Positions 4,331-27,223 of a DNA stretch of 64,000 nt are shown here, piece by piece (the stretch's first letter is position 1; every line of letters begins with the position of its first letter). The notes under the pieces are model-generated. The model had not been told where the DNA came from. It was given only the letters and a program-made list of their open reading frames with translations, and searched no databases. Source of the stretch: Planctomycetes bacterium TMED75 (lineage in GTDB: Bacteria > Planctomycetota > Phycisphaerae > Phycisphaerales > SM1A02); contig NHEC01000019.1 of assembly GCA_002171655.1 (NCBI GenBank), positions 1 through 64,000 on the forward strand. Direction: 5' to 3'. The translations under genes and the position numbers were made by a program.

Positions 4331-6103
4331 TCAGTCAGAGTCCAGCTGGGATACGGACTGATCTTCAAACTGAGACCAGTCCGGCAGCACTCGAAGCAAT
4401 TCCGGCAACAACGGGGGAATGATCGATCTCAGCAGCTGTTCGTAGGCCGCAAGAAACTCCGCCTCCGACAGATACGGGTCATCCGCCACCAACGTCAACT
4501 GGACCTTGGTGAAAAATGCATGCTCCACTCCGAGCGTGTAGGACAGAGATCGAACCCCACGCGCACTCGGCGTCATCTGCCCGTTGGCGATGAAGAAGTA
4601 TGCGCCCGCCAGTCGTGCTCCCGGTTCCGAGGGATCCACGAACAATGAGATCATCAGTTCAAGTTCACCCACGGGCACCCGAAGAGTCCGTGGGAGGCCG
4701 GTCCGTGGATGAGTGGATTCGATGAGCCGATAGGGCTCGTCGGTGACCAGATTGCGGCGGCGGCCGAGAGGCATTTCGTCCAGCAAATCCGTGTAGTTCA
4801 CGATGAACGGCGCACTGGTCTCGATGAGGCCGTGCACCGACCAGCAGCGCTCCGGAACATGGGGTCGGTTCGAAGGACCCCCGGTGTAATGGGCGACGTG
4901 CAGGTTGAGTACGCCGATGTCCTCGAGGAAGTAGTCACGATCCAGGTAGGTCGTGGTTCCAAGCACATCAGCCACGGTATCGGAATACAGTCGATCCGAA
5001 CCGATTCGCTTCCACGGACCCAGTGAGGGGGAAACCGTCTCCAGAGGTTCGCGAAGTGGGACCGCCTTCTTGATCGAATGCACCCCGGCGTACTCCGCGA
5101 CTCCATGGATCGAAAGCGCACTGAGCAACAAAAGTCCGAGCAACACCCCCAGGGCCACCGGAGCTCTGGGTGACCAGCGGATTCCTCCAGGAGTGGAAGC
5201 CTCGCTCGAGGGATCTGCCGGAGCTTCCGGAGAAAAGCCCGCAAGGAACCACTGACAGGACAGAAACAGGAGCAGCGCGGGGAACAACCAGAGCATGCTG
5301 AGAAACGAGTGCGCCGCACCGATCGTCAACTCGGGGTCGTAGGAGTCCAGGACCCCCTGCATGGTGATCCTGAAGATGTTCACCACCAGGGCGATGGGCA
5401 CCGCCAGGGCGATCAGAAGAAAACGCTGCCAGAGCAAGGGCAGTCCGGACCAGGCGATCAGGGTTCCCAGGGCGATGAACGCCATCAACATCCGCATACC
5501 AGAGCACGCTTCGGCGACGTCGATCGCGTTGGACTGAGTGGGTGTTTCCAGAACCAGGAGGTTTCCGGTGCGAACCGTGTCGTACCCCAGGAGTTCGAAC
5601 ATGAACCGGGATCCAACGGTGGCAACGTCCTGAAGGCGATCGGTCACCGGAGCGAGCGCCACCGGCGAAATGAATTGACCGAAGACGAACAGGTACAACA
5701 GGGGAAACCACAACACTCGCAAGACCGACCAGCCACAGAGGGTGAGCACGATCCCGCAGAGGGTGACCGCGATTCCGACGGAGCGTGCATTGTGCAGGTG
5801 CAGCCACCCGGGCCCCAGCACCGTCAGGCCGTAGAGACCGATTCCGATGCCCACCACGATGAAACCGGTGCCTGAGACCCGGACTGACTGGCGCATCAAC
5901 CGCTCGCGGTCGATCCAGGCCAGGTAGACCGTGGCAAAGGGCACCAACAGCGTGTGCCCCCAGTCCCCGGGACGGAAGGCGACAAACTGAAACTGGACCA
6001 CCAGGAAATGCCAGAAGAGCGCAACGAGGAGCACGATCAGGATCGTGATCGACAGCAGCAGTCCTCCGGGGCGCAACTCGATCTGGTCACGGTCGACGGT
6101 CAT
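4331..6103 (-). CDS. Exosortase with fused C-terminal EpsI (DUF3485-like) domain
   Basis: Polytopic N-terminus with exosortase signature 'VAEACSGMRMLMAFIALG' and 'RITMQGVLDSYDPE..IGAAHSFLSMLWLF'. C-terminal 'YLDRDYFLEDIGVLNLHVAHYTGGPSNRPHVPERCWSVHG' typical of EpsI. Confidence 0.85.
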   Translation of the reverse strand: MTVDRDQIELRPGGLLLSITILIVLLVALFWHFLVVQFQFVAFRPGDWGHTLLVPFATVYLAWIDRERLMRQSVRVSGTGFIVVGIGIGLYGLTVLGPGWLHLHNARSVGIAVTLCGIVLTLCGWSVLRVLWFPLLYLFVFGQFISPVALAPVTDRLQDVATVGSRFMFELLGYDTVRTGNLLVLETPTQSNAIDVAEACSGMRMLMAFIALGTLIAWSGLPLLWQRFLLIALAVPIALVVNIFRITMQGVLDSYDPELTIGAAHSFLSMLWLFPALLLFLSCQWFLAGFSPEAPADPSSEASTPGGIRWSPRAPVALGVLLGLLLLSALSIHGVAEYAGVHSIKKAVPLREPLETVSPSLGPWKRIGSDRLYSDTVADVLGTTTYLDRDYFLEDIGVLNLHVAHYTGGPSNRPHVPERCWSVHGLIETSAPFIVNYTDLLDEMPLGRRRNLVTDEPYRLIESTHPRTGLPRTLRVPVGELELMISLFVDPSEPGARLAGAYFFIANGQMTPSARGVRSLSYTLGVEHAFFTKVQLTLVADDPYLSEAEFLAAYEQLLRSIIPPLLPELLRVLPDWSQFEDQSVSQLDSD

Positions 6104-18428: not shown

Positions 18429-18456
18429 TTGCCTCAGTCGAATCCGCAGGTATGAT
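18429..18456 (+). promoter_or_regulatory. Candidate sigma70-type promoter for the 18.5-25.7 kb export locus
   Basis: TTGCCT (18429-18434), 16-bp spacer, TATGAT (18451-18456), upstream AT-rich ATTAAATTT; lies in the divergent intergenic region. Confidence 0.45.
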
Positions 18457-18506
18457 GAATGGAACTTCTTCAAGGCCACAACCAACACGGCCGACAGGCA
18501 ACCAAG

Positions 18507-18905
18507 ATGCATCTTCCCCACCAAATCATCACGATCCTGGTCATCTGCTGGATCCCGTTCTGTTGCTGTTCGATCAAGGCGATGGCCTCGATGGCAGGGG
18601 GCGGGGACATGATCCAGACAAGTTGTTGCAGTCAATTGGGTTGTGATGGTTCGAAGACGGATTCGCAAGAGGCTCCCGGAGACCACCGTCGCTGCGCAGG
18701 ATGCTGCGAACGATTTGCGCCGAACGACACTGTCCAAGAATCCCTGCCAGGCATTGATGAAATCGGTGTGGACCTCTTGGTCTGCCCGACACCCCCCCGC
18801 CCCGAACTGAAACCTGATTGGATGGGCTTCCTTCGAAACGAAGCCCGACCACCGGATCCACCGCTCGGCGCCCTGCTGGCCCTCTGCTGCCAGCTTCAGG
18901 TCTGA
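18507..18905 (+). CDS. Small secreted Cys-rich protein (putative metal-related)
   Basis: Start at MHLPHQIITILVICWIPFCCCSIKAMASM (hydrophobic leader), then 'TSCCSQLGCDG...HRRCAGCCERF'. Precedes efflux genes on the same strand. Confidence 0.55.
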   Translation: MHLPHQIITILVICWIPFCCCSIKAMASMAGGGDMIQTSCCSQLGCDGSKTDSQEAPGDHRRCAGCCERFAPNDTVQESLPGIDEIGVDLLVCPTPPRPELKPDWMGFLRNEARPPDPPLGALLALCCQLQV

Positions 18906-18984
18906 ACGCACTCACCGAACACTCCGTACGCTGTACGTCAACACAGCGAGGACTGTCTGGTGGGCGTATTTGAAAGACCAATTT

Positions 18985-20400
18985 ATGAGCATAAATAAAA
19001 TCATTCGTCATCTGATGACAACAATCTGGCTGTCAGTCCTACTCCTTCTTCTGGCAGGCTGCTATACCGCCAATCCCCAGTCGGATTTCGACCAAACCGC
19101 ATTGCTTGCGGAGGATCGCACCGGTGCATCCGTATCCCTCAAGGATGCGTGGTCGACTTCTTTCGAAGAGCGCAGCGAGGCGTGGGACGGCATCGAACCT
19201 CTGAAACTGGAGCCAGCGATCGTCGTTGCACTCACCAACGACCCCGAGCTGAGGAGGCAACTCTCACTGGTGGCTCGCAAGCGGGCGGAGCTGGCGCAGG
19301 CATCGCTTCCGCCCAACCCCAGGGTGGTCTTCCAGTTCGGCGCCCCCCTGGACGCCGCGGGTGGGTCGCCCGGGATGGTTCAGCTGCTTCAGCAGCTCAC
19401 GTGGCTCTGGACCATGGGGGATCGGATAGACCGACAAGACGAGCAGCTGCAGGCGATGATCCTGGATGCGGCGAGAACTACAGTGACCCGCGCGGCCGAG
19501 GTGCGGGTTGCCTACACGGAAGCGGCCTACTTCCGCGACATCATTGAGTTGCGAAGGGCTTTCGTGGCGACGACCCGAAGAACGCTGGATCTGGTCAGCG
19601 CCCTGGTCGAAGCCGGCGAGGTACCGGAGGTCAATCAGGAACGCGCACGCATCGAACATTACGTTGCCGAGGCCGCACTGGCCATGAGCATGCGCCAGCT
19701 GCGAGGGCACAAACTGCAGCTGCTCCGTCTGATGGGGTGGCCGGGGCACGGGACCGGCTGGGACCTGGCGAGCCCGCTGATGCAAGGGCCCGTCGAAGGC
19801 ATGCCGACCGAAAGCCAGATCGTGCGGCGCGCGCTCGAGGTCCGGCTGGACATCGCCGCCACTGAACGAATGATCAGGGCCGCAGAGGCGGAGCTCAGGC
19901 TTGCTGGATTCACCAGGATCCCACAGGTCGAGTATCGAATCAGCTGGAACCGGAACTTCGGAGACCGACCGGGACTCTTCAACGGAAGTGCCGTCACGCT
20001 TCCGATCGTCGACACCGGATATGCACACATCGCGGACGCCATGGCGCAGCTTGAAACCGCGAATCTCGATGCAGCAATTCTCCGTCAGAACGTCATTCTG
20101 GAGACACGAAGCGCACTCAATTCATGGTTCCAGGCCGAGGAACAGCTGCAGCTCTTTGATGAGACCCTGGTCCTGGAATCAGAGCGCGTGGTGGAAAGTT
20201 CCGAATTGGAGTTCAAGGCGGGCTCGGTCGATTCCACCGAACTGCTGCTCACCCAGCAGCAGATGATCGAGCAACAACTTGAGATGCTTCAACACATGCG
20301 GCAATCCGCACTGGCCTGGATCGGTCTGGAGACGGCGGTGGGCGGCTCCTTCGAGATACCGCTCGAGAAACCTGAAGTTGAGGTGGAGACAAGATCATGA
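18985..20400 (+). CDS. TolC-family outer membrane efflux lipoprotein (CzcC-like)
   Basis: 'MSINKIIRHLMTTIWLSVLLLLLAGC' lipobox (TTG at 18970 is an alternative start). 'LRRQLSLVARKRAELAQASLPPNPRVVFQFGAPLD' and 'LRLAGFTRIPQVEYRISWNRNFGDRPGLFNGSAVTLPIVD' are typical OEP repeats. Confidence 0.82.
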   Translation: MSINKIIRHLMTTIWLSVLLLLLAGCYTANPQSDFDQTALLAEDRTGASVSLKDAWSTSFEERSEAWDGIEPLKLEPAIVVALTNDPELRRQLSLVARKRAELAQASLPPNPRVVFQFGAPLDAAGGSPGMVQLLQQLTWLWTMGDRIDRQDEQLQAMILDAARTTVTRAAEVRVAYTEAAYFRDIIELRRAFVATTRRTLDLVSALVEAGEVPEVNQERARIEHYVAEAALAMSMRQLRGHKLQLLRLMGWPGHGTGWDLASPLMQGPVEGMPTESQIVRRALEVRLDIAATERMIRAAEAELRLAGFTRIPQVEYRISWNRNFGDRPGLFNGSAVTLPIVDTGYAHIADAMAQLETANLDAAILRQNVILETRSALNSWFQAEEQLQLFDETLVLESERVVESSELEFKAGSVDSTELLLTQQQMIEQQLEMLQHMRQSALAWIGLETAVGGSFEIPLEKPEVEVETRS

Positions 20401-21950
20401 GCGAATCAAGTTCACTCAAGGACCTCGCACCGGACGCCTTGAACCGCATTCCGACGCCGGCTGCACGCTGGTTCTCCAGATTTGCCCTTCCATTGGGAAT
20501 AGTCTGCGTTTGCCTGCTCCTGCTCCTGGCCATGAGTTGGAGCGCGCTTGCACCAAGGAAGAGCGTCCAGGTTCAGACCGCGGTGGTCCGGCCGGTTCAA
20601 GCGGTCACGGTTTCAGAACAATCGTTTGACGAAGGCGCCGTGATCCAGGCGCCGGGTTGGGTTGAACCTGATCCAAATCCACTCTTTGTCTCTGCGCTGA
20701 CCGAGGGAATCGTGGAGACGGTGATTCCCCTTGAAGGTGAGCGGGTTGAAGTGGGCGACACCATCGCCATGCTGGTGGATGAAGACGCCAGACTTCTGGT
20801 CCAGAAGGCAAAGGCGCAATTCGACTTTGCCGAGGCAAACCTTGCCATAGCGCAATCCTCCGCAAAGGCTGCCGCCACCGAGCGCAGGGAACTCATCGAA
20901 CCAACTCGCCGACTTGCTCTGGCGAACGCGAGCCTTCAGGAGATCAAAGCCGTACGAAGTGAACAGATCGCGACCATGCGAAGTGCGGAACTGGAGCGAG
21001 ATCAGCTTCAAGATGAACTCAAGCGGAAGGAACCACTGATCAGTGAGGGAGCGGTGGCCGAAGCGGTCGTGGTCCGAATGCGCATGAAAGTTGATGCAAG
21101 CAAGGCACGGATCAACAGTCTCAAGGAACAGATGAAAGGCACCGATGCGCGGGTGACTGCGGCAGAAGCGGAGTTGATCGCCTCTGAACGAGACTTCGAG
21201 CTCCTGGTCCATGAAACACTGGAGATCGAAAAAGCAACCGGTGAACTGCTGCGCGCAGAGGCAGATGTCGCCATTGCATCCGCTGAACTCGATACCGCAC
21301 GACTCAAACTCATGCGATGCAAGGTGCGTTCACCAGTCGCCGGAGTGGTCATTCAGAGGCTGAGCGGACCGGGCTCCACAATCAACTACGGAAACGGAAC
21401 CCACGGGGCACACCTGATTCATCTCTATGATCCAGAGAACCTTCAAGTTCGAGCGGATATTCCGCTTGGTGTGGCCGCCGGGGTCGGAGTTGGACAGGCC
21501 GCAGAAATCGTGGTCGACCTGCTTCCGGACCAGATCTTCACCGGAGAGGTCACACGATTCCTGCACAAGGCGGACATCCAGAAGAACACCGTGGAAGCCA
21601 AGGTCAGAATCCACGATCCCTCCCCTTTGCTCAAGCCGGAGATGCTGGCGCGAGTCAGAATTCTTCCGGTGCGAAACATAGAGACCGGTGAAACCGAGCG
21701 AACCGTCCAACGTGTCTTCGTACCCCGCGATGCAATCGTGGGAACCGAAAGCGAACCGGAAGTCTGGGTGGTCGATGCCTTGCAGTCCGGACAGGGAACT
21801 GCGGACCGGCTGCCCGTCACGCTCGGTGCTTCAGAAGAATCGGGGTGGATCGAACTTGTCGATGGAGTCCTTCCGGGAACCAAGGTGATTCTCAACGGAG
21901 AGGGCCTGAACCAGGGCGATTCCGTCAGCATCAAAAGAGGTGATGTGTGA
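20397..21950 (+). CDS. HlyD/RND-type periplasmic adaptor (membrane fusion protein)
   Basis: Single N-terminal TM; 'GWVEPDPNPLFVSALTEGIVETVIPLEGERVEVGDTIAMLVDEDA', long coiled coil, 'LMRCKVRSPVAGVVIQRLSGPGS'. ATGA overlap with upstream gene. Confidence 0.85.
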   Translation: MSESSSLKDLAPDALNRIPTPAARWFSRFALPLGIVCVCLLLLLAMSWSALAPRKSVQVQTAVVRPVQAVTVSEQSFDEGAVIQAPGWVEPDPNPLFVSALTEGIVETVIPLEGERVEVGDTIAMLVDEDARLLVQKAKAQFDFAEANLAIAQSSAKAAATERRELIEPTRRLALANASLQEIKAVRSEQIATMRSAELERDQLQDELKRKEPLISEGAVAEAVVVRMRMKVDASKARINSLKEQMKGTDARVTAAEAELIASERDFELLVHETLEIEKATGELLRAEADVAIASAELDTARLKLMRCKVRSPVAGVVIQRLSGPGSTINYGNGTHGAHLIHLYDPENLQVRADIPLGVAAGVGVGQAAEIVVDLLPDQIFTGEVTRFLHKADIQKNTVEAKVRIHDPSPLLKPEMLARVRILPVRNIETGETERTVQRVFVPRDAIVGTESEPEVWVVDALQSGQGTADRLPVTLGASEESGWIELVDGVLPGTKVILNGEGLNQGDSVSIKRGDV

Positions 21951-22641
21951 AATGTCATTGATCGAATGCCGAAAATTGACTCGGGTGTACCAAAGTGGCG
22001 TGGAAGAGATCAAACCACTTGATGGTGTCGATCTCGCCATTGAAAAAGGACAGTTTGTCGCACTCATGGGCCCCTCGGGATCCGGCAAGACGACTCTCCT
22101 GAATCTGCTTGCGGGCATTGACCGGCCGACGTCGGGCGAACTCATCATTGATCAACAGTCGATTGGCCAGCTCTCGCGAAACAAACTGGCGACCTGGCGA
22201 TCGGAACACGTCGGGTACGTCTTTCAGTTGTACAACCTGGTACCCGTGTTGACCGCATACGAGAACGTGGAACTTCCCCTTCTGCTCAAGCCACTCACCC
22301 CAAAAGAACGACACGAGCGAGTCGCCGCAGCCCTGGAAGTGGTGGGAATTGCTGACCGGCATCTGCACTACCCGAGACAACTTTCAGGTGGCCAGGAGCA
22401 GCGAGTCGCGATTGCGCGTGCCATTGTGACCGAACCCACCCTGTTGCTTGCCGACGAACCCACCGGGGACCTCGACAAGTCCTCGGCGATCGCGGTCATG
22501 GAACTGCTCAGGCTGCTCAATGAAAAGCATGGTCGAACCATTGTGATGGTGACCCACGACATCAAGACCGCCGAGTATGCGGACCTTCTGCTGAATCTCG
22601 AAAAGGGAAAACTGATCGAAGGTGAAGGAGCCCCAACATGA
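21940..22641 (+). CDS. ABC transporter ATP-binding protein (MacB/LolD type); ATG at 21954 is an alternative start
   Basis: Walker A 'MGPSGSGKTTLLNLLAG', signature 'LSGGQEQRVAIARAI', Walker B 'LLLADEPTGDLD'. Confidence 0.92.
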   Translation: MMCEMSLIECRKLTRVYQSGVEEIKPLDGVDLAIEKGQFVALMGPSGSGKTTLLNLLAGIDRPTSGELIIDQQSIGQLSRNKLATWRSEHVGYVFQLYNLVPVLTAYENVELPLLLKPLTPKERHERVAAALEVVGIADRHLHYPRQLSGGQEQRVAIARAIVTEPTLLLADEPTGDLDKSSAIAVMELLRLLNEKHGRTIVMVTHDIKTAEYADLLLNLEKGKLIEGEGAPT

Positions 22642-23798
22642 AAACGATGTTACGAACGATTCCAATCGTCCTGAAGCAGATCAGACGCAGTCCGATCCGA
22701 TCGGGCCTCACCGTTGGCGGTATCGCCATAGCGATGTTTCTCTTCTGCTTCGTGGAGGCAATGCGGGACGGAGTCAGCAACGCCACCACCGCCTCCGCGG
22801 AAGACGCCACGCTGATCGTCTACCGCCAGAACCGCTACTGCCCTTTCTCAAGCAAACTGCCCCAGTACTACGGGGATCGGATCGAGAAGATCGAGGGTGT
22901 CACGAGTGCGGTGCCAGTCCAGATCACCGTCACCAACTGCAGAGCGTCGCTGGATGTGGTGACGTTCCGCGGGGTCCCGCGTGACGAGCTGGTCGACGTG
23001 CTCGAACCCGGATGGACGATCGCAAATGGGTCGATCAGTGACTGGAAGAAACGAGGAGATGGCGCACTGATCGGAGAATCCCTCGCGGCCCGACGCGGCG
23101 TCAGGGTGGGTGACCGATTCAGCGCTGCGGGCCTGACCGTCTACGTTGCGGGGATCATCGAGTCGGAAGCCCCACAGGATCGCAACGTCAGCTACGTGCA
23201 CCTCCCGTTTCTTCAGGAGAGCATGCGGACCGGTGGCACCGGAGGGTCCGTCACTCAATTCATGGTCAAAGTCAACAACCCGTTGGTGATGGATGAAGTG
23301 GCTCGAACCATCGATGGTGAATTCAGATTTGAATCGCACCCCACCTCCACGAGTTCGGAGAAGGCGTTCGTAGGAAGAGCCGCCCGGGACATCATCGAGA
23401 TCGTGGGCTTTGCGACCTGGCTTGGCTGGAGTGCGCTGGTCACGGTCTTCGCACTGGTGGCCAATGCAATCGTACTTGCGATGCGCGATCGGATTCGTGA
23501 CCACGCCGTCCTCCAGACCCTGGGATTCACCGGTGGACTGATCGGATTCATGGTGGTCTTTGAAGGTGCGGTTCTCGGCATACTGGGAGGTGGGATCGGG
23601 GCACTGGCCGCTTGGAGCGTTGCGCGCATCGGCCATTTCAGCATGACGATGGAAGGACTCAACGTAGAGATCTCTTCGAGCCCCTTGCTGCTGTTGATCG
23701 GGATCTCACTTTCACTGGCATTGGGCATTCTCGCCGGAATCGTCCCCGCCTGGCGCGTCTCACGGCGTGAGATCGCTCACTCGTTCAGGACGGTCTGA
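22638..23798 (+). CDS. ABC transporter permease, FtsX/MacB-like
   Basis: N-terminal TM, large periplasmic domain, 'VTVFALVANAIVLAMRDRIRDHAVLQTLGFTGGLIGFMVVFEGAVLGILGG'. Confidence 0.86.
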   Translation: MKTMLRTIPIVLKQIRRSPIRSGLTVGGIAIAMFLFCFVEAMRDGVSNATTASAEDATLIVYRQNRYCPFSSKLPQYYGDRIEKIEGVTSAVPVQITVTNCRASLDVVTFRGVPRDELVDVLEPGWTIANGSISDWKKRGDGALIGESLAARRGVRVGDRFSAAGLTVYVAGIIESEAPQDRNVSYVHLPFLQESMRTGGTGGSVTQFMVKVNNPLVMDEVARTIDGEFRFESHPTSTSSEKAFVGRAARDIIEIVGFATWLGWSALVTVFALVANAIVLAMRDRIRDHAVLQTLGFTGGLIGFMVVFEGAVLGILGGGIGALAAWSVARIGHFSMTMEGLNVEISSSPLLLLIGISLSLALGILAGIVPAWRVSRREIAHSFRTV

Positions 23799-23807
23799 CA
23801 GATACTC

Positions 23808-24986
23808 ATGAAGCTTCTGCCGATCAGCTACGCCACACGAAATCTGGGAAGAAGCCCGGGTCGCATGTGCCTTTCCATTGGCGGAAGCATGCTGGTGGTC
23901 CTGTTGGTGCTCGCATCCGCCGGTTTCGTCACCGGCATGCAGAAGTCGATAGTCTCGAGTGGAAATCCTCGGAACATGATTCTGATGGCGGCAGGTTCGA
24001 TAGAAAGTATCGAGCGAAGTGAAGTTGCCATGCAGACCTCGGGAATCCTGGCCGCAAGTGTCAGTGGACTGCGCGAAGTTGGTGGCGTCGAGGCAATCTC
24101 ACCGGAAATCCACCTTGCGATACCGGTTTCAAAGGTCGAACCGACGAACGAAGAGAACACTGGAGACCTCATGGTCTTTCGCGGGGTGACTCCCGCAGCA
24201 TGGTTGGTCCACGAGGATGCACAGCTTGAATTCGGCCGACTTCCGGAACCTGGTCGAGAAGAGATCATTCTTGGGAGAATGGCCGCTCGCTCACTTGGGT
24301 ACGAACCGGCCGAAACAGCGATAGGACACCGACTGTGGATCGGTGTCGAACCAGTGGAAGTGGTCGGGATCCTCTCCGGATCGGGCAGTGTCATCGAGGG
24401 TGAGGCATGGATCGACCTCGCCAACCTCCAGGTGATCGCCCAGAGGGATTCACTTTCATGCGTGGTGCTCACCAGAAACGAGGCGACACCCGCTTCCATC
24501 GATAGCTTCGCAGTTCGCCGGCTCGATCTGGAACTGGTCGCGATTGAAGAAACCGACTATTACGCATCACTGGCCGGATTCTTCCGTCCAATTCAGTGGA
24601 TGGTGATCATCACCGCGATCCTCATTGCCTTTGGTGGCATCGTTGGTGGCCTGAACACAACCTATGCCGCCTTTGCGAGCAGGGTGCGAGAACTCGGCAC
24701 ACTGCAGACGCTCGGATATTCGCGTCCGGCCATCATGGTCAGCCTGGTTCAGGAATCACTGCTTGCGAGTGCCGTGGGAGCACTGATCGCATGCGGTGTC
24801 GGGCTGCTGCTCATCGATGGAATCGCCATCAGGTTCTCGCTCGGGGTCTTCGGCATCGAGATCGATACCCTGGTGCTCGCCGCCGCGCTCACAACCGGGC
24901 TGGTGCTGGGCGTGCTGGGTGCGATCATTCCCGCCTGGCGCTGCCTGAGACTCCCCATTCCAGAGGCACTTCGGACCAGTATTTGA
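23808..24986 (+). CDS. ABC transporter permease, FtsX/MacB-like (second, distinct)
   Basis: 'IAFGGIVGGLNTTYAAFASRVRELGTLQTLGYSRPAIMVSLVQESLLASAVGALIACG'. Confidence 0.86.
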   Translation: MKLLPISYATRNLGRSPGRMCLSIGGSMLVVLLVLASAGFVTGMQKSIVSSGNPRNMILMAAGSIESIERSEVAMQTSGILAASVSGLREVGGVEAISPEIHLAIPVSKVEPTNEENTGDLMVFRGVTPAAWLVHEDAQLEFGRLPEPGREEIILGRMAARSLGYEPAETAIGHRLWIGVEPVEVVGILSGSGSVIEGEAWIDLANLQVIAQRDSLSCVVLTRNEATPASIDSFAVRRLDLELVAIEETDYYASLAGFFRPIQWMVIITAILIAFGGIVGGLNTTYAAFASRVRELGTLQTLGYSRPAIMVSLVQESLLASAVGALIACGVGLLLIDGIAIRFSLGVFGIEIDTLVLAAALTTGLVLGVLGAIIPAWRCLRLPIPEALRTSI

Positions 24987-25070
24987 GTTTCAGATTGGAC
25001 ACCTTGCAGAAGTGCGGGTACCGTTCCCAAACACCATCAACCAGGGACCACCCTCTTCGGAAGATCCACC

Positions 25071-25685
25071 ATGCAATACACCTTCTTGACCGGCATTGGG
25101 ATTTCACTTTTCATCGGAGCTCTGGCAGTGCCCGGCGGATGCGGCCGGTCCGATGAGACAATCCAGGACTTGAAGACTGCCGACGTGGTCATTCCCGCTT
25201 CGACCTTCGTCAATGTACGGCCTGAGGGGTCGGTGATGCTGGCGGACATCAAGGCGAGTGGGAACGTTGGTGACAAGGTGGTCGTCGAAGCGAGGGTGGG
25301 CGGTCGGGCGACACCATTCGTCGATGGCAGTGCGATGTTCATCGCCGCGGATCCAAGACTTGTCTCGTGCGACCAGCGACCCGGGGACCACTGCAAGATT
25401 CCCTACGACTACTGCTGCGAAGACCCCGCAGCCATGAAGGCAGGCACCGCGACCATTCAGTTGGTGGATTCCAATGGCATTCCCTATCCGGTTGGGGCCA
25501 GAGGTCAGGGTGGGATCGAACCCCTGAAGACGGTCGTCATCTCCGGAGTGATCTCGGAAAAGAACGAACAAGGCATCATGGTCATCGATGGAAGTACGAT
25601 CTGGGTTGGAACCATTCCGGCCTCCCCCCCCGGCGAACACGACCACCACGACCACCACCACGACCACGACCACAGCCATGAATGA
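25071..25685 (+). CDS. Secreted Cys-cluster protein with His-rich C-terminal tail (putative metal-binding)
   Basis: Signal-like N-terminus 'GISLFIGALAVPGGCGRSD', Cys cluster 'CDQRPGDHCKIPYDYCCED', C-terminus 'HDHHDHHHDHDHSHE'. Confidence 0.75.
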   Translation: MQYTFLTGIGISLFIGALAVPGGCGRSDETIQDLKTADVVIPASTFVNVRPEGSVMLADIKASGNVGDKVVVEARVGGRATPFVDGSAMFIAADPRLVSCDQRPGDHCKIPYDYCCEDPAAMKAGTATIQLVDSNGIPYPVGARGQGGIEPLKTVVISGVISEKNEQGIMVIDGSTIWVGTIPASPPGEHDHHDHHHDHDHSHE

Positions 25686-27223
25686 TTCACGTGACTGACC
25701 GACCACTCATTCTTGCGATCGATATCGGCACCTCGGGCACCAAGGTGCTGGCGGTGGATGCCCTGGGCCAGGTACGGCACTCGGCTCATGCGAGCTATTC
25801 ATTCGAGTCACCTCAACCGAGTTGGGCGGAACAATCGCCTCAGCTCTGGTACGACGGCACTCTGAATGCGGTGCAGTCGCTGCTTTCAAACCCCGAAATT
25901 CAAGCAGACGACGTGGTGGCGATCGCCCTTGCGGGTCAGATGCACGGCCTGGTGGCGCTGGACGCGCACCTGGAAGTCATTCGCCCCGCACTGCTCTGGA
26001 ACGACCAGCGAAGCGCCCCGCAGTGCGAGCAGTACGCGAATCAACTGGGCAATGAGTTCCTCCTCGAGCACACCGGCAATCTGATGCTCCCGGGGTTCAC
26101 GGTTCCGAAGCTGCTGTGGATGAGAACACACGAGCCCGAAGCCTACGCCGCAATCAGGCATGTCCTGCTTCCCAAGGACTACGTGCGCTTCAAGCTGGGC
26201 GGCAATTTGATTTCGGATGTGACCGATGCCTCAGGCACTGGCGTCTTTGACTGTGGCCGTAGACGATGGTCGAAGGCGATGTTGGAGGCACTGGACCTCC
26301 CGCCCGAGTGGTGGCCACCAACGGCGGAAAGCCTGGAAGTGGTCGACCAATTGAGTCCTTCGGCAGCGAAGGAGATCGGGCTGCGGGCTGGGATCCCCCT
26401 CATCGCGGGCGCCGGCGACCAGGCGGCCAGTGCGGTCGGAACCGGCATCATCAAGGAAGGGCTGGTCTCGACCACCATTGGAACCTCGGGCGTGGTCTTC
26501 GCATGCAGTGACCACTGGCGCACGACTCAAGACGGCGCGCTGCATGCATTCTGCCACGCAGTCCCCGACACCTGGCACCTGATGGGTGTGATGCTGAGTG
26601 CCGGCGGCAGCTACGACTGGTTCTGCCGCAGCCTCATGCCCGACATCATGGACCAGGCGCAGGCGAATGGGATCGACCCCTTCGAGGAGATCACCGAGCG
26701 AGCGGGCGGTGTGCAACCGGGGGCTGATGGATTGTTCTTCCTTCCCTACCTGACCGGAGAACGCACCCCCCACGCAGATCCCCGGGCACGAGGTTGCTTC
26801 ATCGGCCTGACGCCCGCCCACGACCGCAACCATCTTGCTCGCGCAGTCATCGAGGGAGCGCTGTTCGGCCTGCAGGACTGCCTGCAGCTGATCCGTCGCC
26901 TGGGCATCCAACCGGATTCGATCCGACTTTCCGGGGGAGCCGCCGCAAGTGAACTCTGGCAATCACTGAGTGCGGACGTGATGGGTGCCCCGATCGTCTC
27001 GACCACCACCAGTGAGGGAACGGGCTACGGAGCAGCCATTCTGGGCGGGACTGCAGTGGGACTCTGGCCGGATGTTCCCCAGGCGTGCGAACAGCTGGTA
27101 CGGGAAAGACGCCGGACAATGCCTTCGGAAGACCAGGTCGTCTACGCGAGACTCCACGAGCGATACGCTCAGCTCTATCCGATACTCAAGGAGTGGTGGC
27201 ACGAGACCAAGCCGCTACCCTGA
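25682..27223 (+). CDS. xylB: Xylulokinase (FGGY family)
   Basis: 'LAIDIGTSGTKVLAVDALGQV', 'IALAGQMHGLVALD', 'RPALLWNDQRSAPQC', 'LPKDYVRFKLGG', 'GVQPGADGLFFLPYLTGERTPHADPRARGCFIGL'. Confidence 0.92.
   Translation: MIHVTDRPLILAIDIGTSGTKVLAVDALGQVRHSAHASYSFESPQPSWAEQSPQLWYDGTLNAVQSLLSNPEIQADDVVAIALAGQMHGLVALDAHLEVIRPALLWNDQRSAPQCEQYANQLGNEFLLEHTGNLMLPGFTVPKLLWMRTHEPEAYAAIRHVLLPKDYVRFKLGGNLISDVTDASGTGVFDCGRRRWSKAMLEALDLPPEWWPPTAESLEVVDQLSPSAAKEIGLRAGIPLIAGAGDQAASAVGTGIIKEGLVSTTIGTSGVVFACSDHWRTTQDGALHAFCHAVPDTWHLMGVMLSAGGSYDWFCRSLMPDIMDQAQANGIDPFEEITERAGGVQPGADGLFFLPYLTGERTPHADPRARGCFIGLTPAHDRNHLARAVIEGALFGLQDCLQLIRRLGIQPDSIRLSGGAAASELWQSLSADVMGAPIVSTTTSEGTGYGAAILGGTAVGLWPDVPQACEQLVRERRRTMPSEDQVVYARLHERYAQLYPILKEWWHETKPLP

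Follow-up and report, generated by a model that had tools for sequence, protein, structure and literature searches.

A conserved planctomycete gene cluster encodes a putative tripartite Type VII ABC pump with Cys-rich partners, a candidate exporter of soft metals

Seven co-directional genes on the + strand (18507-25685) of the 64-kb window, the whole stretch of Planctomycetes bacterium TMED75 DNA analyzed here, form a conserved cluster that is common to planctomycetes and, judging from the genomes compared, encodes an ATP-driven, envelope-spanning pump together with Cys-rich partners of its own. We consider it somewhat probable that the cluster is a dedicated tripartite ABC pump of Type VII (MacB/LolCDE/FtsX) for a soft transition metal, most likely of the Zn/Cd type. 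Zn/Cd-type resistance genes lie in or beside the cluster in several lineages, which makes it a probable, so far undescribed route of toxic-metal removal. That the pump represents an undescribed class of tripartite metal exporter, one with a Type VII ABC motor and a periplasmic thiol relay that is found widely in the Planctomycetota, is proposed tentatively.

Gene organization of the cluster

All seven genes listed in the preliminary description were present on one strand. The first encodes a Cys-rich secreted small protein of 133 aa beginning with MHLPHQ (18507..18908); an ATG further upstream, at 18459, is an alternative start that would give 148 aa. It is followed by genes for a TolC/NodT-type outer-membrane factor with the lipobox LLLAGC (18985..20400; Pfam OEP, 3e-32; NodT subfamily, 4e-13, below cut-off), a HlyD/RND-mfp-type periplasmic adaptor of 517 aa (20397..21950; Pfam HlyD_D23, 2e-15, and also HlyD_3; TIGR01730, 125.6 bits against a cut-off of 94.9) and a LolD/MacB/FtsE-type ABC ATPase of 229 aa (21952..22641; ABC_tran, 5e-37). 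Two different permeases of the FtsX/MacB fold come next: P1, of 386 aa (22638..23798; MacB_PCD, 4e-14; FtsX, 5e-12), and P2, of 392 aa (23808..24986; FtsX, 6e-13; MacB_PCD, 4e-12); in Pfam, both models were above their gathering scores in both permeases. The last gene (25071..25685) codes for a lipoprotein of 204 aa with a lipobox, a Cys motif and a predicted OB fold.

Neither the first nor the last gene gave a significant family match in Pfam or NCBIfam. All Lol cut-offs of NCBIfam were missed: LolD, the best match of the ATPase, scored 224.7 bits against 307.75, and lolCE 58.9 against 362.45.

The two ATGA overlaps reported previously are real: at 20397 the start codon of the adaptor gene and the stop codon of tolC overlap, and at 22638 those of P1 and the ATPase gene do. 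Another, at 25682, joins the lipoprotein gene to a downstream xylulokinase-like gene. A promoter and terminator scan gave a result no better than shuffles.

Conservation of the cluster in the Planctomycetota

The lipoprotein gene was found in 107 of 151 genomes of the window's family (78/98 when good genomes are counted) and in 117 of 392 genomes of the phylum, almost always linked to genes for the same ATPase, permeases and adaptor. Across the family the order tolC-adaptor-ATPase-P1-P2-lipoprotein is maintained. In distant families the adaptor, ATPase, P1, P2 and lipoprotein genes occur together at 36 of 40 loci, and some distant loci show a rearranged order, P2-lipoprotein-adaptor-ATPase-P1. 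P2 is conserved beside P1 or the lipoprotein gene throughout family and phylum. The tolC gene is missing from the cluster in some relatives; the lipobox Cys of the TolC-type protein is found in all 30 aligned relatives.

The Cys-rich gene was located upstream of tolC or the adaptor gene at 33 of 41 family loci and 17 of 36 distant loci, and at none in three control positions. Conservation of the two end genes beside the ABC/TolC genes, the point on which the preliminary description could have failed, holds family-wide and largely phylum-wide. Purifying selection acts on the two end genes: between pairs of relatives, dN/dS was 0.22-0.57 for the Cys-rich gene and 0.09-0.27 for the lipoprotein gene.

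Among 40 genomes of the family, all 20 with the lipoprotein also had P1; of the 20 without it, 17 lacked P1 and an 18th had a 29%-identical P1 paralogue. G013, a species from the same genus as the window, has kept the pump and lost the lipoprotein gene. A scan of genome contigs with a single sequence yielded one planctomycete locus, and a plasmid scan gave none.

Conserved cysteines of the partner proteins and of permease P1

The N-terminus of the Cys-rich protein is hydrophobic and ends in CCC; SCC and CAGCC follow, and the short C-terminus is hydrophobic too. The protein is predicted to be exported via a signal peptide. Its ORF has the highest Cys fraction among the 206 window ORFs of at least 90 aa, and its main aligned Cys positions are kept in 49-94% of 51 sequences.

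In the lipoprotein, the Cys cluster noticed previously is present, but its spacing, given as C-x6-C-x6-CC, is in fact C-x7-C-x6-CC, formed by C100, C108, C115 and C116 within CDQRPGDHCKIPYDYCC (codons 25368..25418). In the general form C-x(2-14)-C-x2-P-x-[DE]-[YF]-C-C the motif occurs in 76 of 82 members; among 73 motif-bearing sequences, C108, P111, D113, C115 and C116 are invariant and C100 is present in at least 90%. The OB fold was predicted by AF2 with a 73-sequence alignment (mean pLDDT 87.3, core about 98); single-sequence AlphaFold gave a pLDDT of 33.5. Foldseek searches with the model matched OB domains and YgiW (1nnx, probability 1.00, TM 0.62 over the target), and comparison of the lipoprotein sequence with the PDB produced chance matches only.

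The same protein ends in a His-rich C-terminal tail, EHDHHDHHHDHDHSHE (25635..25682), and its gene holds the densest His stretch among the 206 ORFs. A His-rich stretch was found in 12 of 42 family members and 4 of 40 distant members only. The tail, on which the metal reading had originally been based, is therefore sporadic, a lineage add-on, and was rejected as the defining metal feature.

The universal features appear to be the lipoprotein Cys motif and a Cys pair of P1 that the preliminary description did not contain. Cys68 (codon 22839-22841) and Cys101 (codon 22938-22940) are invariant in 78 of 78 P1 sequences, and both are missing from the paralogous P1 of a system that has no lipoprotein. 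The closest solved chain to P1 is LolC (5e-6).

Metal-resistance genes near distant copies of the cluster

The window copy has no flanking metal gene; its neighbours are a sugar-type symporter gene and the xylulokinase-like gene, and most copies in the window's own family have no metal-gene neighbours. Elsewhere, a Zn/Cd-type P1B ATPase gene is found directly 3' of the lipoprotein gene (L121) or of P1 (L145), and 5' of the Cys-rich gene (L057); in L112 and L129 a CDF gene adjoins the one for the lipoprotein; an HMA-domain gene lies 5' of P2 in L108, L130 and L131; and CusA/CzcA RND genes are nearby in L057, L099 and others. The nearby ATPase in L108 is of the copper type. A 12.8-kb copy shared by two families (L057, L104; 92.6% identical) holds an ATPase gene and is bordered by RND and IS66 genes.

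Within 12.5 kb of the cluster in 80 genomes, the counts were at least 8 for RND against 2.5 expected (P 0.0045), 4 for HMA against 0.7 (P 0.0065) and at least 5 for P1B against 1.6 (P 0.024); the expectations assume uniform gene positions and use total match counts, and the P values ignore shared ancestry (G419 and G473 share a copy; G255, G506 and G174 are one family). For CDF genes there was no enrichment over this distance: 2 genomes had one nearby, against about 0.8 expected by an estimate from totals, and both genes lie less than 1 kb away.

The metal genes in and beside distant copies support a dedicated metal-linked ABC system with thiol-rich partners. This part of the initial proposal is supported by gene linkage and by the Zn/Cd P1B ATPase, CDF, HMA and CusA/CzcA genes; the His tail as its driver is not.

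Proposed mechanism and alternative explanations

In a metal exporter of this kind, metal would enter the periplasm via inner-membrane exporters (P1B ATPase, CDF), where the Cys-rich secreted protein and, through its Cys motif, the OB-fold lipoprotein would bind it; the His tail, where present, would act as a buffer. It would be passed on to the Cys pair in the periplasmic domain of P1. Hydrolysis of ATP by the ATPase on a putative P1/P2 heterodimer would then drive the metal, free or carrier-bound, out by way of the HlyD-type adaptor and TolC-type channel. For Type VII pumps, mechanotransmission and periplasmic substrates have been described (PMC5985334, PMC12646458), and the same mode of action would be expected here as in the tripartite pumps (PMC5985334). 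A thiol relay composed of the Cys-rich carrier, the four-Cys OB-fold lipoprotein and the permease Cys pair is, jointly with metal export, plausible but not quite probable.

The Cys-rich protein might itself be the cargo: exported by Sec, it would fold or bind metal in the periplasm and be expelled by the pump through the outer membrane, with the OB lipoprotein as an accessory. Small Sec-secreted proteins are exported by Type VII tripartite pumps (PMC8277102, PMC5985334), MacAB-TolC exporting the small secreted enterotoxin STII and the Aat and Cex pumps dispersin-like proteins. The gene stands at the start of the cluster, and in 5 of 7 pairs its dN/dS exceeds that of the other six genes, as might be seen for a cargo. 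However, of the 36 distant loci there were 19 at which the filter used did not find it, although at least one of these, L100, carries a Cys-rich ORF that falls below that filter. Cargo export alone also leaves the neighbouring genes for a Zn/Cd ATPase, CDF and HMA proteins unexplained; we regard it as unlikely.

We give considerably less credit to an exporter for thiol/disulfide or redox homeostasis, in which the Cys proteins would act as a thiol relay in the periplasm, serving the export of a small thiol or oxidised product, and the metal neighbours would reflect shared stress. The cluster itself includes no oxidoreductase, and the HMA, P1B ATPase and CDF neighbours, together with the His-rich stretches, favour metal, even though every universal special feature is a cysteine and the OB lipoprotein of L054 is fused to an AhpC/TSA-type thioredoxin-fold domain. 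A LolCDE-like system for outer-membrane lipoprotein or envelope trafficking, whose client would be the OB lipoprotein and whose metal linkage would be incidental, seems just as improbable. Among named models and solved chains, LolD and LolC/LolE are nearest to the ATPase and P1, and the OB protein has a lipobox; the near-universal presence of the cluster in the family suits a housekeeping role no less than one in resistance. Such trafficking would nevertheless leave the cysteines and the metal-gene neighbourhoods unexplained; the scores are far under the Lol cut-offs, and we know of no HlyD adaptor or TolC channel in LolCDE.

Comparison with known systems

The cluster resembles MacAB-TolC, Aat, Cex, PvdRT and DevBCA in its MacB/FtsX-fold permeases, MacB-like ATPase, HlyD-type adaptor and TolC-type channel. 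MacB combines ATPase and permease in one polypeptide, whereas here they are encoded by separate genes (21952-22641, 22638-23798 and 23808-24986). For the known Type VII tripartite pumps drug, peptide, siderophore or glycolipid cargos have been described; the present cluster differs from them in its Cys-rich and OB-fold Cys-motif partners, its P1 Cys pair and its metal-gene context. With LolCDE it shares a separate LolD-like ATPase and two different FtsX-fold permeases, LolC and LolE being the closest solved chains to P1, but it includes an adaptor and an outer-membrane channel.

YbbAP of Escherichia coli, a Type VII ABC system once proposed as a heavy-metal exporter (PMC8277102), is currently regarded as a system that extracts hydrophobic compounds, YbbAP-TesA (PMC12646458); it has a fused 10-helix permease and neither adaptor nor channel, whereas the cluster has both. 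Beyond this old suggestion, the available text of PMC5985334, PMC8277102 and PMC12646458 describes no Type VII ABC system as dedicated to metal export, and literature searches did not find the gene set of this cluster described. Partner proteins aid function prediction for uncharacterised Type VII systems, and the partner set found here differs from the sets presented in that work (PMC12646458). If metal export is correct, it would give a testable role to two widespread, unnamed families, one comprising the OB-fold lipoproteins with the Cys motif and the other the Cys-rich secreted proteins, and Cys68 and Cys101 of P1 would be a direct mutational target.

The predicted OB fold invites comparison with YgiW/BOF proteins, also periplasmic OB folds; the lipoprotein differs in its Cys-motif loop and lipobox, neither of which we know of in that family, and in having no Pfam family match. 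CusF is a small periplasmic OB-fold metal carrier that works with the Cus pump. The conserved residues of the lipoprotein are Cys, Pro and Asp, not the His/Met/Trp copper site of CusF; no Pfam or PDB sequence match related the two, and CusF was not among the best 50 fold matches.

In Gram-negative bacteria, metal efflux across the whole envelope is mainly ascribed to RND pumps. CusCFBA and CzcCBA have the same tripartite, envelope-spanning design, and CusA/CzcA genes adjoin some distant copies of the cluster; their motor is an RND proton pump, whereas here it is an ABC ATPase, with no RND gene within 18507-25685 and RND genes only near distant copies. If the cluster does export metal, trans-envelope efflux of metals would have a second type of motor, an ABC motor doing what the RND motor does in CusCFBA and CzcCBA.

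Organization of the gene cluster

DNA sequence analysis of the window identified seven co-directional genes on the + strand, at 18507-25685, coding in this order for a Cys-rich protein of 133 aa with a hydrophobic N-terminus (18507..18908), a TolC/NodT-type lipoprotein, a HlyD-type adaptor, a LolD/MacB-type ATPase, two different FtsX/MacB-fold permeases (P1 and P2) and a lipoprotein of 204 aa (25071..25685), hereafter the lipoprotein. The preliminary description was right in its gene list and in the ATGA overlaps that it placed at 20397 and 22638; in the last gene, however, the cysteines are spaced C-x7-C-x6-CC instead of the C-x6-C-x6-CC claimed. A third ATGA overlap, at 25682, joins the stop of the lipoprotein gene to the start of a xylulokinase-like gene (25682-27223). 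A xylulokinase homologue was found 3' of the lipoprotein gene in 13 family loci among those examined, a position that probably reflects read-through rather than a functional tie. The source genome is a draft of 2.98 Mb, 79% complete; among its relatives, one from a named collection is a MAG of the Planctomycetota.

Conservation of the cluster

Of 151 genomes in the window's family, 107 contain the lipoprotein gene, covering 33 of 45 genera; an alignment-based search of 392 genomes from the whole phylum found it in 117. Except at contig ends and in a minority lacking the TolC gene, the order tolC-adaptor-ATPase-P1-P2-lipoprotein recurs among the 41 family loci. The linkage of the end genes to the ABC genes, proposed as a check, held: the lipoprotein gene was kept together with the adaptor, ATPase, P1 and P2 genes in 36/40 loci from other families, and the Cys-rich gene recurs beside the ABC/TolC genes (see below). 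Several loci outside the family show the order P2-lipoprotein-adaptor-ATPase-P1; the survival of linkage through rearrangement argues for the cluster forming a functional unit.

Forty family genomes were compared for P1, which was present in all 20 lipoprotein-positive genomes and had no match in 17 of the 20 lipoprotein-negative ones. The sole match in genome G003 was a 29%-identical paralogue, and a true P1 was found in G052, where the locus is cut by a contig end, and in G013, from the genus of the window. In G013 the xylulokinase gene comes straight after the P2 gene, with no lipoprotein gene between them. This looks like a genuine loss, so that, assembly error aside, the lipoprotein appears to be dispensable in at least one species. 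This locus (L138, G013:C7, 4000-6890) retains TolC-adaptor-ATPase-P1-P2 and both P1 cysteines described next.

Cys68 (RYCPxxSxLPxxY) and Cys101 (NCRASLD) of P1 were conserved in 78/78 sequences. Both are absent from the paralogous adaptor-ATPase-P1-P2 set of G003 (L140, 4716-9027), where no lipoprotein was found; judged by this single paralogue, the two P1 cysteines belong with the lipoprotein-bearing type.

Structure of the lipoprotein

The AlphaFold model of the lipoprotein, built on an alignment with 73 relatives, had a mean pLDDT of 87.3 (core ~98); its fold matches were aspartyl-tRNA synthetase OB domains and YgiW, a periplasmic protein of E. coli (probability 1.00, TM 0.62 on target). 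Because the E-values were 1e-3 or weaker, the predicted OB assignment is one of fold and implies no homology. The motif C-x(2-14)-C-x2-P-x-[DE]-[YF]-C-C occurs in 76/82 members. The His-rich tail attributed to the last gene does exist in the window but is sporadic elsewhere (12/42 family and 4/40 distant members), which marks it as an add-on.

Tandem duplicates occur among the members. The lipoproteins of L057, L061, L064 and L104 carry two OB-type domains in tandem, with a different Cys pattern in the first. The L054 protein (4716-5897) joins the OB-fold domain to a thioredoxin-fold domain of AhpC/TSA type (TDCPIAN). Divergent relatives with a CPFC motif occur at two loci. The one at L124 (9266-12218) adjoins genes for a CobW-family GTPase and a poly-His-Asp lipoprotein, along with a borderline match to DUF2946; the one at L125 (11728-12372) has a P1B ATPase nearby. 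They may form a second branch linked to zinc.

The Cys-rich gene

The Cys-rich gene was scored as a secreted-type ORF, 85-240 aa long, that has 8 or more Cys, two or more CC pairs and a position no further than 3 kb from the cluster. By this filter, 33/41 family loci and 17/36 distant loci had one upstream of the cluster and on its strand, and none turned up at three control positions. Several filter-negative loci have a Cys-rich ORF outside its limits. The gene is under purifying selection (dN/dS 0.22-0.57 overall), with the highest dN/dS of all seven genes in 5 of the 7 pairs compared; a family search with the protein gave no significant match. A further Cys/His-rich secreted-type ORF (L099, 9799-10224) heads a divergent RND-type efflux operon adjoining the cluster.

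Metal genes in the vicinity of the cluster

The cluster had been read as a possible metal (or metal-chelate/metallo-lipoprotein) export system with its own periplasmic metal-binding partners. Metal genes do lie in or beside distant copies, but none were found near the window copy or most family copies. A Zn/Cd-type P1B ATPase gene is located immediately 3' of the lipoprotein gene at L121, and a Zn/Cd-type ATPase follows P1 at L145; a CDF gene lies less than 1 kb from the lipoprotein gene at L112 and L129; L108, L130 and L131 have an HMA-domain gene close to P2 on its 5' side, and L108 has a copper-type ATPase upstream; and a zinc/manganese-uptake-type binding protein is encoded nearby at L061. 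Loci L057 (803-13560) and L104 (6250-19000), of different families, share 12.8 kb, 92.6% identical, containing the cluster and a Zn/Cd-type ATPase. This copy is bordered by a CusA/CzcA RND gene, followed in L057 by an IS66 transposase, and looks like a recent horizontal transfer.

Among 80 lipoprotein-bearing genomes, enrichment within 12.5 kb was found for CusA/CzcA (at least 8 genomes vs 2.5 expected, P 0.0045), HMA (4 vs 0.7, P 0.0065) and P1B ATPases (at least 5 vs 1.6, P 0.024), P values that are only a guide since related genomes are non-independent and metal genes cluster together. CDF genes were not enriched at this distance (2 genomes, both immediate neighbours, vs ~0.8 by our estimate). 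We give more weight to the HMA and ATPase genes adjoining the cluster, and to the 12.8-kb copy common to two families, than to the P values. By gene type, the neighbours point more to Zn/Cd; one case is copper.

Proposed mechanism and relation to known systems

According to PMC5985334 and PMC12646458, Type VII ABC systems typically act on the periplasmic side and do not themselves carry substrate through the inner membrane. The genome of the window has three P1B ATPases elsewhere. The most economical reading, which goes beyond the gene set, is that inner-membrane exporters would load metal into the periplasm, thiol carriers would hold it there, and the pump would clear the held metal through the adaptor and channel. 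The main rival makes the Cys-rich protein itself the cargo of the pump; other small Sec-secreted proteins are exported by MacB-type pumps (PMC8277102). We consider this alternative unlikely. The stronger claim, that the cluster represents a dedicated class of ATP-driven metal exporters, is plausible, and we lean slightly against it.

No description of this gene set was found in the literature searched. The cluster has the same build as the tripartite Type VII pumps. Its ATPase, unlike that of MacB, stands apart from the permeases, of which there are two different ones; unlike LolCDE, the cluster has an adaptor and a channel. No shared homology was detected with CusCFBA, whose design the cluster parallels in combining an OB-fold carrier with a tripartite path.
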